From contig DYJA01000050.1 of NCBI GenBank assembly GCA_020723345.1, positions 1-48,442 on the forward strand: 48,442 nt of DNA. The letters are read 5' to 3'. The DNA comes from Candidatus Aquidulcis sp. (GTDB taxonomy: Bacteria > Chloroflexota > Anaerolineae > UBA4142). Of the stretch, positions 14,036 through 20,459 are shown piece by piece. The notes beneath the pieces were generated by a model, which saw nothing but the letters and a program-made list of their open reading frames with translations, did not search any database and was not told where the DNA came from. The translations under genes and the position numbers were made by a program. Within the stretch, counting starts at the first letter, position 1. Each line of letters opens with the position of its first letter.

Positions 14036-14080
14036 GGACAAATCTCGTGGTGAGCGAAGCGAATCCATGGAAATTTGTCC
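14036..14080. repeat. Palindrome GGACAAAT/ATTTGTCC at the end of the AhpD-like gene
   Basis: GGACAAAT (14036-14043) pairs with ATTTGTCC (14073-14080). The interior has GAGCGAAGCG, a word shared with other repeats here. The stop codon TAG of the AhpD-like gene (14080-14082) overlaps the end of the arm. Confidence 0.75.
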
Positions 14081-14337
14081 TACGTGCATCCGCACCCACC
14101 AGTGTTTTCGCTCGCCGTCGCAGGAACGGAACCATTCAGCGTCGCGATGAACTTGTCCATCTTCGATGCCGCGCCTTTCCGCACCATTCTCCCCGTTTCG
14201 ATTGCTTCGGCGATCTCCTGTGGATCCGCGCCGGTTTCCCGCGCCATTGCCGTCGTCGACTGCAAACACGGCTGACAGTTGGCGGAGATTGCCGCGCCGA
14301 CCGCGATCAATGCCCGTGTTCGATCATCCAGTTTCAT
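14080..14337 (-). CDS. Carboxymuconolactone decarboxylase / AhpD-like protein
   Basis: 85 residues. ANCQPCLQSTTAMARETGAD holds the CxxC redox pair and downstream His/Thr region of the CMD/AhpD family, and GADPQEIAEAIETGRMVRKG fits its second helix. Likely a small alkylhydroperoxidase-like or thiol-disulfide protein. The C-terminus GGCGCT adds two more cysteines, which could bind metal. ATG 14337 has GGAG about 10 nt upstream. It lies downstream of the hgcAB-arsM-sigma genes on the same strand. Confidence 0.85.
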   Translation of the reverse strand: MKLDDRTRALIAVGAAISANCQPCLQSTTAMARETGADPQEIAEAIETGRMVRKGAASKMDKFIATLNGSVPATASENTGGCGCT

Positions 14338-14402
14338 AATCAAATGTCTCCTTTCCGATCTTATAGACGAGAATCAATCAGAAAAGGATACACCTTCAAA
14401 CC

Positions 14403-14449: not shown

Positions 14450-14989
14450 TCACAGCCAATCCTCCGCTTTGCAATGACTCTTCAATTTTTCCAACAGCAT
14501 CGCGCGTCCCCGGTGCAATCGGATCTTGACCGTCTCCAAACTCACGCCGAGAATCGCGGCGATCTCGCCGTTGGTCAACTCTCCCAACTCGCTGAGCGCG
14601 ACGACCGTGCGATAATTCGCCGGAAGTTTATCGACGAAATTCCGAAAGCACGCGTATCGTTCCTTTCGCATGGTGCGTTGTTCGAGCGAGAGTGGCTCGC
14701 TGATAGCCCGAAGACCATGCCACTCGTCGTTCAACGAGCAACTCTGCGCGTCTTGGCGAAACGCGGGCGCGCGCATTTTATCGATCGCGGCGTTCGTGGC
14801 GATGCGATAAATCCACGTCGAGAGTTGCGCGTCGCCTCTGAAATTCGGCAACCCCTGACTGACTTTGACGAAAACTTCCTGGGTCAGATCTTCCGCTTCG
14901 CCTGCGCCGACCAGACGCGTCAGATAACGCTGCACCTTTGGTCGAAACGTTTCGTGGATCGTCTCGAACGCAAATGGATTGCCGTTCAT
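14450..14989 (-). CDS. ECF-type RNA polymerase sigma factor
   Basis: 179 residues. Region 2 has AEDLTQEVFVKVSQGLPNFR and LSTWIYRIATNAAIDKMR; region 4 has LPANYRTVVALSELGELTNG followed by AAILGVSLETVKIRLHRGR. This is the sigma70 ECF layout with no extra domain and no adjacent anti-sigma gene. It starts 9 nt after the arsM stop, so it is likely in the same transcript as hgcAB-arsM; a role in metal stress is inference from position only. Confidence 0.95.
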   Translation of the reverse strand: MNGNPFAFETIHETFRPKVQRYLTRLVGAGEAEDLTQEVFVKVSQGLPNFRGDAQLSTWIYRIATNAAIDKMRAPAFRQDAQSCSLNDEWHGLRAISEPLSLEQRTMRKERYACFRNFVDKLPANYRTVVALSELGELTNGEIAAILGVSLETVKIRLHRGRAMLLEKLKSHCKAEDWL

Positions 14990-14998
14990 AGATTACGC

Positions 14999-15754
14999 TC
15001 ACGGCTTGCGCGCGACGAATTTCGCGCTGTACACCGGCTCCAGCGGGTTTTCGCCGCCCGCAACTTTATCGACGCCGACAAAACCGGCGGCGCGCATTTT
15101 TTCGATGTACTCTTTCTCGGTGATCGCGCCACTGACGCACGCCGCCCACGATGCTATATTCGCGCGCATGATCTCCGGCATCGGTAGGCGCGTCACCATG
15201 TCCGAGATCGCGACGCGTCCACCCGGCTTGAGCACGCGAAACGCTTCGCGAAAAACGCGATCCTTGTCCGGCGCGAGATTCACCACACAATTCGAAATGA
15301 TCACGTCGACTGAATTATCATCGACCGGCAAATTTTCCAATTCGCCGTGCCGAAATTCGACGTTCGTCGCGCCGACCTTTTGCGCGTTCGCGCGCGCGAG
15401 CGTCAGCATGTCCGTCGTCATGTCCACGCCGATCACGCGTCCGCGCGCGCCGACGCGTTTCGATGCGTACAGACAATCGAGTCCGCCGCCACTGCCGAGA
15501 TCGAGCACGGTTTCGCCCGGCTGCACCTGCGCGATTTCGAGCGGCGTGCCGCAGCCCAGCGACGTGTTGACGATGTCGTCCGGCAGCGCGTCTTTCGTCG
15601 TGAGCAAATCCGCCGGAATCACATCCGACGGCGCGCAGCAACTTGTCTCCGCACTGCTCGGCGCGCAACAACTACTCGGCTTGCCCGCGAGTTTCTGCCG
15701 CGCGATGTCCGCGTATCGCTCGCGCACTTGCTCCTTGATTTGAGTATCGTCCAT
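14999..15754 (-). CDS. arsM: Arsenite S-adenosylmethyltransferase
   Basis: 251 residues. Methylates As(III) with SAM in the cytosol. The N-terminus has two CCAPS motifs (C29-C30, C39-C40); the SAM site is VLDLGSGGGLDCL; Cys68 (LGCG), the NCVVN cysteine and the ACVSG cysteine are the arsenic-binding set of the family. ATG 15754 has GGAGG 6 nt upstream. It follows hgcB after 76 nt that hold a palindromic repeat, and precedes the ECF sigma gene. Mercury and arsenic methylation thus appear linked here. Confidence 0.96.
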   Translation of the reverse strand: MDDTQIKEQVRERYADIARQKLAGKPSSCCAPSSAETSCCAPSDVIPADLLTTKDALPDDIVNTSLGCGTPLEIAQVQPGETVLDLGSGGGLDCLYASKRVGARGRVIGVDMTTDMLTLARANAQKVGATNVEFRHGELENLPVDDNSVDVIISNCVVNLAPDKDRVFREAFRVLKPGGRVAISDMVTRLPMPEIMRANIASWAACVSGAITEKEYIEKMRAAGFVGVDKVAGGENPLEPVYSAKFVARKP

Positions 15755-15830: not shown

Positions 15831-16097
15831 TCAACCGCAGGTGGCTTGTTGCTTGCGCGTCAACGCCGCGGCGATCATCGCGGCAGCGCAACCGACGCCG
15901 CTGTCCACTTGGATCGCGCCGAACGGACAATTGACCTGACACGCGCCACATTCCATACACGCGTCGCCGTGGACGACGTAAATCGTGCGGCTGTTTTGCG
16001 CGAACACGCCGTGCGGACAAACGTCCACGCAGATCCCGCAACCGGTACACGCTTCCGCATCGAACTTGAGAGTGTTGAGTGCAGACACGCCGACCAT
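15831..16097 (-). CDS. hgcB: HgcB, ferredoxin partner of mercury methylation
   Basis: 88 residues with two 4Fe-4S motifs, C17-x2-C20-x2-C23-x3-C27P and C47-x2-C50-x2-C53-x3-C57P. CMECGACQVNCPFGAI followed by DSGVGCAAAMI (Cys70) and a C-terminal Cys87 is the HgcB pattern rather than a generic ferredoxin. It is thought to reduce the HgcA corrinoid so that it can accept and transfer a methyl group. The start overlaps the hgcA stop: ATG 16097 (TGATG) has GGAGG 6 nt upstream, with another ATG at 16100. Confidence 0.95.
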   Translation of the reverse strand: MVGVSALNTLKFDAEACTGCGICVDVCPHGVFAQNSRTIYVVHGDACMECGACQVNCPFGAIQVDSGVGCAAAMIAAALTRKQQATCG

Positions 16098-17095
16098 CAT
16101 GCGCCTCCCAGAATTTTGATCGCCGCGCGCACAATCGTCAACGCGATGCCCGCGCCGAACAGCCAAGCCATAACGGGAATGTACGCGAATATTTCGCGCC
16201 GGACGCCCGTCCGCGAGGTGAACGTCGTCGAGCCGGTGAAATTCAGCGTGATGAACGCGGTAATCGGCGGGAGTGTCAACAGCCAGGTCAGCGCGCCAGT
16301 CGCGCGGAGCCACATCGCCGCGTTCGGATTCGACAGAAACGCGATCAGCGCGAACGGCAACGCGACGATTCCGCCGAGAATCAAGCCCTTGGTGCTGAAC
16401 GCGTGCGTCGGCAGCCAGGGCAACAGAATCGGAAAAAGAACTGTGCCTGCCAAGATTGCCGCGATGATGGCTGGCGATGATACGAATCCTCCAATCAAGT
16501 CCAGCACGATAACCACGATCAACACCGGCAGCACCGCGACCAGTTCGACCGGAATCAGAACGATGCGATCACGCAACGGGAAATGAACGCGCCGCATTTC
16601 CGGCGTGGCTTGATGCGTCTTGAGGTACTCCGGCAAATCCGTCGCGCGCACCGGACCGTATTCGATTTTGAACTGCGTCCGTTTCGTGACTAAATGCGCC
16701 GCCACGCCCGGCGCGCCGAGTTGCGGCAGAATCAACGTGCGATGATGTACGACATCCTTCAACCCGGTTGCTTCAATGCGCTGCACCAATTCGTCCGTGC
16801 CAAACGTTCCTTTGCCCGCCGCGCACCAGACGTTGATCCCGTCCGTGTCGAGCACCAAAATGTAACTGTCCCTGCCTGCCAGCGCCTCGCGCAGCGCGTC
16901 GAAACTGAGCGTATAGTTCGCGCTGACGAACACGGGCGAGTCCGCTGTGGGCTTGCCCAACGCGTACAGCCCCGGCGCGACGCGATGTCCGCTGCGATTG
17001 ATCGCCCAGCGCGCCAGAAAATGGTCCCACCGATTGCCCAACATGATCGCGCTGGTCGTCGGTCGGACAACTCGATGGTCGGTTGCTCCCGTCAT
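16097..17095 (-). CDS. hgcA: HgcA, corrinoid protein of mercury methylation
   Basis: 332 residues. Transfers a methyl group to Hg(II), forming methylmercury. The N-terminal corrinoid domain has PGLYALG and NYTLSFDALREAL and the diagnostic cap helix N88-V-W-C-A-A-G-K95, in which Cys91 is the expected lower cobalt ligand. From about residue 172 five hydrophobic segments form the membrane domain. Both halves and the length fit HgcA; a generic CO dehydrogenase corrinoid protein lacks the membrane half. AAGGAGG lies 6 nt before ATG 17095. Immediately followed by hgcB. An operator-like block shared with arsR precedes it. Confidence 0.97.
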   Translation of the reverse strand: MTGATDHRVVRPTTSAIMLGNRWDHFLARWAINRSGHRVAPGLYALGKPTADSPVFVSANYTLSFDALREALAGRDSYILVLDTDGINVWCAAGKGTFGTDELVQRIEATGLKDVVHHRTLILPQLGAPGVAAHLVTKRTQFKIEYGPVRATDLPEYLKTHQATPEMRRVHFPLRDRIVLIPVELVAVLPVLIVVIVLDLIGGFVSSPAIIAAILAGTVLFPILLPWLPTHAFSTKGLILGGIVALPFALIAFLSNPNAAMWLRATGALTWLLTLPPITAFITLNFTGSTTFTSRTGVRREIFAYIPVMAWLFGAGIALTIVRAAIKILGGA

Positions 17096-17117
17096 CTGCC
17101 GCCTCCTTGCAAAGAGA

Positions 17118-17145
17118 TATTGACGTATTTAAGTTTGTCTATATG
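17118..17145 (-). promoter_or_regulatory. Operator-like block upstream of hgcA
   Basis: A 28-nt block, ATATTGACG...TGTCTATAT on the plus strand, 24/28 identical and in the same orientation as the block that overlaps the arsR promoter (17627-17654). It starts 23 nt before the hgcA start codon. The dyad is less perfect than in the arsR copy. Likely binding site of the ArsR protein; this is inference. Confidence 0.75.
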
Positions 17146-17156
17146 TCGGTTGAAGA

Positions 17157-17177
17157 AAAAGCCGCCTGCGAGCGGCT
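17157..17177 (-). terminator. Intrinsic terminator after arsR
   Basis: On the reverse strand AGCCGC (17172-17177) pairs with GCGGCT (17160-17165) followed by TTTTC. It lies between arsR and the hgcA operator and implies separate transcripts for arsR and hgcAB, or partial read-through. Confidence 0.75.
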
Positions 17178-17255
17178 CGCGTTCGTAGTGTGCGCTTCGA
17201 GCGCACGACCGCCAAAGCGGTACTCCGAACCGCACTTGAGCGAACTGCGCGAACG

Positions 17256-17591
17256 CTAGGCGCGCGCCTTGCGCGCTGACTTGGGAAGCCGAATGCTAAG
17301 CAACTTGCCGGGCGCGAATTTTGCCCACAACATTCCGCAGCACTCGTCCACGTTTTCGGCGTTGAGCGAGTACAAAATCTCCTTGCCCTCGCGCCGACTG
17401 TTGACCAGCCCTTCGTGCTTGAGAATCTTGAGATGGTGCGAGATCGTCGGTTGGGAAGAACGTTCGAACGCGGCGACGATGTCGTTGACGCGCAGCTCGC
17501 CTTTCTTCTGAAGCATTTGCAGTATATCTTGCCGCGTCGCGTCGCCCAACGCGCGGCAGAACGCGACGCAATCAATTCCAGCCACAGTCAC
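17256..17591 (-). CDS. ArsR/SmtB-family metalloregulator
   Basis: 111 residues with the winged-helix core LGDATRQDILQMLQKKGELR, SSQPTISHHLKILKHEGLV and the wing RREGKEILYSL. Cysteines at 8, 12 and the pair 84-85 (VDECCG) could bind arsenite, mercury or another thiophilic metal. Such regulators leave DNA when metal binds. GTG 17591 or GTG 17585 is the start; the second has GAAGG 5-6 nt upstream. First gene of the metal island, with a near-consensus promoter overlapped by a dyad. Confidence 0.95.
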   Translation of the reverse strand: MTVAGIDCVAFCRALGDATRQDILQMLQKKGELRVNDIVAAFERSSQPTISHHLKILKHEGLVNSRREGKEILYSLNAENVDECCGMLWAKFAPGKLLSIRLPKSARKARA

Positions 17592-17625
17592 CTTCGATCC
17601 AGACGCGGCGCGGGCGCGCCGTGAA

Positions 17626-17647
17626 CATATTGACGAATTTCAATATG
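17626..17647 (-). promoter_or_regulatory. Operator dyad at the arsR start site
   Basis: CATATTGA (17626-17633) and TCAATATG (17640-17647), a perfect 8-bp dyad with a 6-nt centre, directly downstream of the arsR -10 box. This layout fits autorepression. Confidence 0.85.
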
Positions 17648-17652
17648 TCTAT

Positions 17653-17680
17653 ATTATACCACAGAAAATCAATTTGTCAA
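17653..17680 (-). promoter_or_regulatory. arsR promoter
   Basis: On the reverse strand TTGACA (17675-17680), 16-nt spacer, TATAAT (17653-17658), with an extended -10 TG. Both hexamers are perfect consensus. The operator dyad begins 6 nt downstream. Confidence 0.9.
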
Positions 17681-17808: not shown

Positions 17809-18609
17809 TCAGAGCGGCTTGCGCTCCGGCACTCCGGCGCGGCGCGGATACTTGTCCGGCGTCGCCGCGACTTTTTCGACGACGACGAGGTGGCGCGGCT
17901 CCAGCCCCGGCAGCTGCACCGGCACAATCTCGTGCATGCGTCCGCCGAGGAGTTCGAGCGCGCGCGCTGCCGCGTGGAGTTCGTCGTCAACCTCCACGCC
18001 CTTTTGCGCGATGAAGACGCCGCCTTGCCGCACGAACGGCAACGCGTACTCGAACAACGTCGCCAAATTCGCGACCGCGCGCGCGACTGCGACGTCGTAC
18101 TGCGCGCGATGCGCCGCGTCGCGCGCGAGGTCTTCGGCGCGCGCGTGGATCGCGACCGTGGCGTGGAGATCGAGTTGCTCAATGACGTGCTTGAGGAACG
18201 CGACTTTTTTGCCGGTCGCTTCGAGGAGGGTCACACGCAAATCCGGCAGCGCGATTTTGAGCGGGATGCCCGGAAAACCCGCGCCCGCGCCAATGTCAAT
18301 CAGTCGCACTGTGATTGCGAGGAGCGTCCTGAGCGGAGCAACGTTTTTTGTTGCGGAGTCGAAGGATCGCGACGAAGCAATCCCCGCGCCGCTCGGAGAT
18401 TGCTTCGCTTCGCTCGCAATGGCCGGAGCCACCGACAACGAATCGAGAAAGTGTTTGACGATCACGTCGTCGCGCGCGGTGATCGCCGTGAGGTTGACGC
18501 GCGCGTTCCACGCGACGAGTTCGCGATAGTACATCTCGAACGCGTCGCACTGCGCGGGCGTGAGTTCGACGCCGAGCGCGCGCGCGCCGTCGACGAGAGA
18601 CGTCGTCAT
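17809..18609 (-). CDS. rsmG: 16S rRNA (guanine-527-N7)-methyltransferase with an in-frame repeat insertion
   Basis: 266 residues, longer than the usual 210-240. N-terminal NLTAITARDDVIVKHFLDSL and the SAM site LIDIGAGAGFPGIPLKI, LLEATGKKVAFLKHV are clear RsmG motifs. Between DSLSVAP and VRLIDIGAG about 38 extra residues (63-100) are encoded by a palindromic repeat (18314-18420); the reading frame is kept, so the enzyme may still work, with a loop before the SAM-binding strand. ATG 18609 has AAGGTGGA directly upstream and overlaps the stop of the upstream gene (ATGA). Confidence 0.93.
   Translation of the reverse strand: MTTSLVDGARALGVELTPAQCDAFEMYYRELVAWNARVNLTAITARDDVIVKHFLDSLSVAPAIASEAKQSPSGAGIASSRSFDSATKNVAPLRTLLAITVRLIDIGAGAGFPGIPLKIALPDLRVTLLEATGKKVAFLKHVIEQLDLHATVAIHARAEDLARDAAHRAQYDVAVARAVANLATLFEYALPFVRQGGVFIAQKGVEVDDELHAAARALELLGGRMHEIVPVQLPGLEPRHLVVVEKVAATPDKYPRRAGVPERKPL
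18314..18420. repeat. Palindromic element inserted in rsmG
   Basis: ATTGCGAG at the left faces CTCGCAAT at the right; inside are GAAGCAATC / GATTGCTTC and GCAACG/TGTTGC. About 107 nt. It contains CCTGAGCGGAG and GGAGTCGAAGGA, words shared with 10379-10434. Its translation (IASEAKQSP, CERSEAI in another frame) is typical of dispersed palindromes seen in several bacterial groups. Confidence 0.9.
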
Positions 18610-19754: not shown

Positions 19755-20108
19755 TCAGCGTAACGGCAGGTACCGTACCTGCCCTTCCCATTCGTTTTCC
19801 AAACTACATTCGGCTAACAACAAAATATCTTCGATCGCATGTCCAATCGAAACCGCGCGGCTGACTTCGAACACGCCAGGCATTGGCATGCTTGCGCGAA
19901 CGCGTTCGTACGCGTAACGCGTGAAAGTTGTAACGTCGTGCGTAAGAATGACGCGACCTGCGTGCGCTGCCCATTCCAAGATCGTGGGATCGTCCGCGCC
20001 AGATAATCCGACATCCTGGACGCGAACCACATCGAGGGTTGGCTCGCGACGTCGCAAGCCGCGCACGATGTCTCCGCTGAAGTTTTCATCCGCGACAAGA
20101 TGCAGCAT
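19755..20108 (-). CDS. DUF5615 PIN-like protein (putative toxin)
   Basis: 117 residues beginning MLHLVADENFSGDIVRGLRR, with ILEWAAHAGRVILTHDVTTF; the N-terminal ADENF acidic residue and TxD motif mark the DUF5615 PIN-like fold, usually the RNase-like partner of a DUF433 protein. It starts 3 nt after the DUF433 stop, so both form one unit. Toxin activity is inferred from the family. Confidence 0.88.
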   Translation of the reverse strand: MLHLVADENFSGDIVRGLRRREPTLDVVRVQDVGLSGADDPTILEWAAHAGRVILTHDVTTFTRYAYERVRASMPMPGVFEVSRAVSIGHAIEDILLLAECSLENEWEGQVRYLPLR

Positions 20109-20111
20109 GGC

Positions 20112-20441
20112 TTATGGCATTTCTGTGCGCCGCGCCAAGAGCCGCGCGCGTACACCTTCAGGATTGAATTTAGCTTCGTTCTGTTTGCGGACGTCATTCG
20201 CTTGCCGTCGCCGTTCGCGTAAATATTGCTCGACCTCAACCCGATTTTGCAAGTAATAGCCGATGACCGCGTACACGTCAGCCAGGTTCAGTGACGAATA
20301 CTGTTGCGCGATCTCCTCCGCGGTCGCGCCTTGCTCGAACGCGGACACGACAGTATCCAGCGTCACGCGTGTACCGCCGACGCGCAGGACGCCATCCAGG
20401 TAAGTCAATGGAACAACTTGGGTTGGAGTAGATTCGATCAT
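20112..20441 (-). CDS. DUF433 protein (putative antitoxin)
   Basis: 109 residues. VLRVGGTRVTLDTVVSAFEQ followed by GATAEEIAQQYSSLNLADVY is the DUF433 helix-turn-helix-like core; a charged C-terminal tail (YLRERRRQANDVRKQNEAKF) may contact the toxin. ATG 20441 has GAGG 5 nt upstream; a GTG at 20447 is the longer option. First gene of the pair with the DUF5615 protein. Confidence 0.88.
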   Translation of the reverse strand: MIESTPTQVVPLTYLDGVLRVGGTRVTLDTVVSAFEQGATAEEIAQQYSSLNLADVYAVIGYYLQNRVEVEQYLRERRRQANDVRKQNEAKFNPEGVRARLLARRTEMP

Positions 20442-20459
20442 AGTCACCTCACAAACGCG

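Follow-up and report, generated by a model that had tools for sequence, protein, structure and literature searches.

In the DNA analysed here (48,442 nucleotides of a Candidatus Aquidulcis sp., hereafter the window), the mercury-methylation genes hgcAB appear to sit inside an arsM cassette controlled by an arsenic-type repressor. The model that we favour as probable combines two operators (O1 and O2) of one ArsR, an arsM cassette holding hgcAB, a roadblock formed by ArsR behind the arsR terminator and release by arsenic. Sequence comparison covers the two operators, the cassette, the position of hgcAB, the fixed spacing and the lack of a conserved second promoter; from these, ArsR binding, the identity of the inducer and the roadblock action are inferred. 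The locus reads along the minus strand and comprises the following features.

17812..18609, minus strand: rsmG (gidB), which precedes arsR in each of the six family genomes compared and serves as the syntenic anchor
17653..17680, minus strand: arsR promoter, TTGACA (17680-17675), 16 nt, TATAAT (17658-17653), 12/12 consensus
17627..17654, minus strand: O1, putative ArsR operator at the promoter of arsR, with the minus-strand sequence ATATAGACATATTGAAATTCGTCAATAT; 37.7 bits, genome-wide E 6e-7
17256..17591, minus strand: arsR, ArsR/SmtB-family repressor, 111 aa, GTG start (NF033788, PF01022)
17152..17178, minus strand: intrinsic terminator 3' of arsR with its hairpin at 17178-17159 and a U-tract whose first T is at 17160
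17117..17144, minus strand: O2, a further putative ArsR operator with the minus-strand sequence ATATAGACAAACTTAAATACGTCAATAT; 35.0 bits when read on the plus strand, genome-wide E 1.5e-3
17102..17108, minus strand: hgcA ribosome-binding site AAGGAGG, read from the sequence
16097..17095, minus strand: hgcA, mercury-methylation corrinoid protein (NF040863, 437 bits, cut-off 275)
15831..16100, minus strand: hgcB, mercury-methylation ferredoxin (NF040864, 110 bits, cut-off 99)
14999..15754, minus strand: arsM, arsenite S-adenosylmethionine methyltransferase (NF008823, 310 bits, cut-off 263)

The arsR product belongs to the ArsR winged-helix family (NF033788 at 85.5 bits with a cut-off of 55; PF01022). 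Its AlphaFold model (pLDDT 84) displays the a1-a5/b1-b2 order, and its PDB neighbours are SrnR, CadC and AfArsR. In addition to its 437 bits, HgcA exhibits the cap-helix motif N(V/I)WCA(A/G)GK in the form NVWCAAGK, and the translation of hgcB (110 bits) contains both 4Fe-4S cysteine motifs. The gap of about 75 nt between hgcB and arsM was searched for a promoter or operator and none was found; comparison of the hgcA leader with Rfam revealed no riboswitch. Downstream of arsM, the minus strand encodes an ECF sigma factor (14450-14989; the related genome G011 has a homologue too) as well as a small carboxymuconolactone-decarboxylase/AhpD-like protein (14080-14343) whose Cys-rich tail reads GGCGC. 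Together with arsM, both genes may be part of one arsenic unit. On the other side of the locus, a DUF433 and DUF5615/PIN-like pair with the look of a toxin-antitoxin system occupies 19755-20447 of the minus strand.

O1 and O2 have the same orientation and share 24 of their 28 letters, and the best other unrelated 28-mer on both strands of the whole window reached 17/28. A preliminary description of this DNA had reported such a duplicated block before arsR and hgcA. The repeat itself stands; its hgcA-side coordinates were one base off, as the register 17118-17145 matches 17627-17654 at only 5/28 positions and the copy lies at 17117-17144. An outer 8-12-8 dyad, ATATTGAC-N12-GTCTATAT, is letter-identical in both copies and self-complementary at 7/8 positions. 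The perfect dyad described before in the arsR copy was found again as an inner 8-6-8 element, CATATTGA/TCAATATG (17626-17647), which pairs at 8/8 positions there and at 4/8 in the hgcA copy. This inner dyad was rejected as the sole operator core, being broken at hgcA while the outer dyad is intact. Judging by relatives, inner and outer parts form one 28-bp site. The pattern ATATWGAC-N12-GTCWATAT has two exact matches in the window and also in the whole 6.34-Mb genome; the next best match has two mismatches.

Relatives of this ArsR were present in 126 of 396 genomes of the Chloroflexota class sampled. In the closer of these relatives, the promoter of arsR contains a 28-bp site directly 3' of the -10 box with the consensus ATATAGAC(A/G)TATTNAAAATT(A/G)TCTATAT. 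A position weight matrix and profile trained exclusively on arsR-promoter sites outside the window's family assigned 37.7 bits to O1 and 35.0 bits to O2. Apart from the two sites read in reverse and a single register overlapping them (7.7), the rest of the window scored 4 bits or less, and the 99% level of shuffled intergenic sequences was -0.1. A genome-wide profile search (6.3 Mb) ranked O1 first (E 6e-7) and O2 second (E 1.5e-3), followed by O1 read in reverse (E 0.6); no match with E<0.5 was detected in the whole genome outside the arsR/hgcAB-arsM locus. Matches with E<0.1 comprised the arsR and arsM/hgcA sites only in the relatives G002, G011 and G012, and the arsR site only in G010. O1 of the relative G009 scored just 8.3 bits. 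The consensus promoter noted earlier at the arsR copy was confirmed: O1 adjoins a sigma-70-type TTGACA-N16-TATAAT with 12/12 consensus positions. This arrangement is kept upstream of nearly all arsR relatives and places an apparent operator dyad next to TATAAT at the repressor's own promoter, as in other ArsR/SmtB proteins. We regard it as highly probable that O1 and O2 are both operators of the window ArsR. The earlier proposal of an ArsR operator that puts hgcA under arsR's own repressor is supported by the recovery of both sites, and nothing else at E<0.5, with a profile from other families.

The usual arsR-arsM build in the class is promoter-O1-arsR-terminator-O2-arsM. G012, G002 and G010, which are of the same family as the window genome (G012 even of the same genus), carry rsmG-arsR-terminator-O2-arsM with an ArsR 70-86% identical overall and lack hgcAB. 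Here, O2 before arsM reached 25.1 bits (G012), 30.2 bits (G002) and 18.1 bits (G010). At the same rsmG-linked place, the window genome (G000) as well as G009 and G011, from two related genera, have terminator and O2 followed by hgcA-hgcB-arsM, and the matrix gave no convincing O2-like site in the hgcB-arsM interval of these three genomes. Since relatives carry O2 before arsM at the same place, hgcA very likely stands behind the old operator of arsM.

In a quick tree, HgcA of G000, G009 and G011 grouped as a single clade with an SH-aLRT of 96. Further HgcA clades also contained hgcAB linked to arsM or to such an arsR box, giving at least three origins on well-supported branches of this tree. 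G012 lacks hgcAB although it shares the genus of the window genome; the genes may have arrived once, with a later loss in G012, or may have been gained repeatedly. The gene order also varies: two Anaerolineales MAGs (L126, L127) show arsR-terminator-O2-arsM-hgcAB, an Acidobacteria MAG (L143) arsR-terminator-O2-hgcA, and G001 arsR-terminator-O2-hgcAB-arsM with another ArsR subfamily. A search upstream of other hgcA genes, suggested by the preliminary description, located the block at 3 of the 22 hgcA loci of the class and not at the remaining ones, and we discarded it as a general hgcA feature. Few of 80 named hgcA loci had similar sites, and these mostly accompany another ArsR subfamily.

Several neighbouring observations concern the spread of these genes. 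In the Acidobacteria MAG (RPQK01000088; L143, 3560-4000), the order promoter-operator-arsR-U-tract-operator-hgcA occurs outside Chloroflexota, and its HgcA groups with an Anaerolineales HgcA (SH-aLRT 99); transfer of the whole cassette to this lineage is possible. An archaeal hgcA in Methanocella sp. PtaU1.Bin125 (L155, 3565-3975) is preceded by an arsR of another type with an ELCVCE motif, and the same operator profile matches upstream of that arsR with 28.8 bits. In Candidatus Methanoperedens (L137, 3038-3850), arsM lies directly 5' of an archaeal hgcA. The arsM match of G011 (L048, 11359-11974) is split over two reading frames by a frameshift, either real or from assembly.

The terminator proposed earlier between arsR and hgcA was verified as a hairpin (17178-17159, minus strand) plus U-tract with an MFE of about -13 kcal/mol. 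ATAGAC of O2 begins 18 nt past the first T of the U-tract. The distance is 18 nt in the window genome, G002, G009, G010 and G012, with G010 read by a wider U-tract rule. In a survey of 70 scorable arsR loci from two ArsR subfamilies, 58 had a U-tract 3' of arsR, and a predicted stem reached the U-tract in 45 of those. At 56 of the 58 loci, a half-site ATNGA was located 14-20 nt from the first T (observed 15-19, mostly 17 or 18); control windows of equal width further downstream gave 5 and 0 half-sites. A full dyad was present at 40 of these loci, 38 times at 16-19 nt, compared to a shuffle expectation of 0.002 per locus. Among the 12 loci without a called U-tract, eight had neither U-tract nor O2 and four had a weaker T-run together with O2. 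The U-tract of G011 is broken (TTTGATTT). Two genomes from other classes, examined afterwards, displayed spacings of 16 and 17 nt. Alignment of 60 O2 regions revealed conservation of the U-tract and the half-sites only; letters in the interval between them are poorly conserved, and nothing is conserved upstream of the U-tract. A constant distance with free intervening letters suggests a mechanical constraint.

The terminator-O2 module before arsM is widespread in other genomes of the class (L101-L122, L219-L258). The two ArsR subfamilies differ in operator length (28 bp versus about 20 bp) and share the distance from U-tract to half-site. In G008 (L051, 9500-9740), hgcAB-arsM is found with a consensus promoter, an operator and a T-run, without an intervening arsR. 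An O2-like dyad begins 18 nt behind the first T of this T-run, and the sole visible promoter of hgcA lies upstream of the T-run.

Two readings compete for the role of O2. The preliminary description gave hgcA its own ArsR-controlled start, so that the promoter at O2 would be repressed directly and the terminator would merely insulate arsR from hgcAB-arsM. The resemblance of O2 to O1 (35 bits) is in line with this view, and the co-occurrence and joint absence of U-tract and O2 would be expected if a terminator necessitates a second promoter. However, the search for a second promoter at O2 was unsuccessful. No sigma-70 match in the arsR-hgcA interval exceeded 8/12, and no -35/-10 elements are conserved over the 60 aligned loci, in contrast to TTGACA/TATAAT at O1. 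The best sigma-70 matches were mostly 7-9/12 at O2 versus mostly 10-12/12 at O1. A -35 box placed as at O1 would fall about 26 nt before the operator, inside the GC-rich terminator stem. In the second ArsR subfamily, the ribosome-binding site is so near O2 that a start behind O2 would exclude the site from the message. Moreover, a separate promoter leaves the constant distance between U-tract and operator unexplained. The separate start proposed for hgcA is not borne out by these data; a weak or unusual (non-canonical) promoter at O2 is the main rival and in our view the less likely reading.

As no promoter is conserved at O2 and the distance between U-tract and operator is fixed, we prefer a roadblock combined with terminator read-through: ArsR at O2 probably closes a leaky terminator rather than controlling a promoter of hgcA. 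The front edge of RNA polymerase typically lies about 15-18 nt ahead of its active site; with this geometry, the enzyme would run into ArsR as the U-tract begins, a little too early for release driven by the hairpin. Like the low score of O1 in G009 and the broken U-tract of G011, this point weighs against the model. From the fixed spacing we infer that ArsR may help the terminator. ArsR is listed among roadblock proteins (PMC10310618), and O2 is positioned behind arsR and its terminator, as fits such a role; the block to elongation itself is predicted.

The favoured mechanism would operate as follows. O1 would cover the start of the arsR promoter and O2 would act just before the hgcA ribosome-binding site, with hgcA, hgcB and arsM forming one putative transcription unit behind O2. 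Without inducer, ArsR at O1 would repress initiation, and ArsR at O2 would stop leaking polymerases on the U-tract so that the terminator wins. The presumed inducer is trivalent arsenic, either As(III) or methylarsenite sensed by Cys84-Cys85. In its presence, ArsR would leave O1 and O2, arsR would be strongly transcribed, and read-through of the unassisted terminator would yield the hgcAB-arsM message. A broader proposal is that this repressor-locked terminator, in which ArsR about 17-18 nt behind the U-tract start tightens a leaky terminator and arsenic opens promoter and terminator, is used in the arsM cassettes of the class and captured hgcAB at least three times. We put it forward tentatively, at a little under even chances.

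The cysteines of ArsR are Cys8 and Cys12 in helix 1 and Cys84-Cys85 in helix 5. All 19 relatives aligned retain Cys84-Cys85, and almost every one of them adjoins arsM; Cys12 is conserved within the window ArsR's own subfamily. The type 1 motif of R773 in the DNA-binding helix (Cys32/Cys34/Cys37, ELCVCDLC) was not found; GELRVNDIV occupies that place. AfArsR, the type 2 repressor, uses three cysteines for As(III), and SpArsR has two and responds to methylarsenite but not to As(III) (PMC11868830). In these two types of repressor a vicinal pair lies in the C-terminal dimerisation helix. Helix 5 of the window ArsR has a vicinal pair, which may correspond to Cys95/96, and no third cysteine; Cys12 in helix 1 might serve as the third. 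Because of the co-location with arsM, a trivalent arsenical is the likeliest inducer, and arsenic or a similar metalloid probably decides when hgcAB is switched on. By chemistry alone, Hg(II) is possible as well. Alternatively, the repressor could sense S-adenosylhomocysteine (SAH) or another methyl-cycle signal in a SahR-like manner and not arsenic. ArsM produces SAH, and an ArsR-like regulator of hgcAB in strain ND132 is said to respond to both arsenic and SAH. Yet the predicted regulon consists of arsR and hgcAB-arsM only, neither of the two genome-wide sites lies at a methionine-cycle gene, and the invariant Cys84-Cys85 pair next to arsM also argues against SAH sensing, which we consider improbable.

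It is slightly less probable still that the hgcA copy is a non-functional leftover, with hgcAB expressed constitutively from elsewhere or silent. The degraded inner dyad (4/8) would agree with decay, but O2 still scores 35 bits with the other-family profile, the site persists in three hgcAB-bearing genera as well as in three genomes that lack these genes, and the U-tract-operator spacing is preserved. Chance or a recent functionless duplication, for which the mutual likeness of AT-rich stretches in a GC-rich genome might be cited, is refuted for practical purposes by the mere two exact matches in 6.34 Mb and by retention of the site in place across genera and classes.

The favoured model of a repressor-controlled cassette physically ties mercury-methylation genes to arsenic methylation and bears on two questions, the control of hgcAB and the purpose of HgcAB. 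According to it, hgcAB of these uncultured Chloroflexota should be inducible by arsenic species. Furthermore, the fixed-spacing terminator-operator module represents a compact, testable regulatory design. The openly accessible papers searched yielded no prior description of the operator, of hgcAB behind an arsM operator or of a fixed terminator-operator spacing. We take three sequence-derived proposals to be new: the operator site, an arsM cassette that captured hgcAB, and the terminator-operator module.

The closest known system is Pseudodesulfovibrio mercurii ND132, for which arsenic-responsive ArsR control of hgcAB was described by Gionfriddo et al. 2023 (cited in PMC10349881 and PMC12953829). 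As described in these two citing papers, an ArsR-family repressor gene lies immediately 5' of hgcAB, as in the window, and is co-transcribed with hgcAB. In contrast, arsR of the window is closed by a terminator, hgcA has a second operator before it, and the unit continues from hgcAB into arsM; the arsenic response of hgcAB is predicted here. The ND132 report reduces the novelty of predicting ArsR-arsenic control for hgcAB. In metagenome-derived genomes of diverse methylators, arsR-like genes and arsM were noted near hgcAB (McDaniel et al. 2020, PMC7438021). The available sections of that study list neighbouring genes including acr3 and contain no operator, terminator or cassette analysis.

Among arsenic systems, arsRMC of Arsenicibacter rosenii likewise has an ArsR-controlled arsM, induced by As(III) and methylarsenite, but differs by a single promoter, co-transcription and a different cysteine site (PMC11868830). 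The ars1 operon of Bacillus sp. CDB3 shares a leaky terminator within an ars operon, an internal hairpin that lowers expression of distal genes; this hairpin lies between arsC and arsD, and the accessible part of the report describes no ArsR operator behind it (PMC4562236). A second ArsR site between arsR and the output gene is also known from an engineered arsenic bioreporter, arsR-ABS-reporter, in which it lowers the background (Stocker et al. 2003, in PMC3918153). That construct is man-made, with no fixed-distance terminator in the excerpted account (PMC3918153), whereas the arrangement presented here is natural and conserved. If the model is true, evolution already uses the design that was built by hand in bioreporters.
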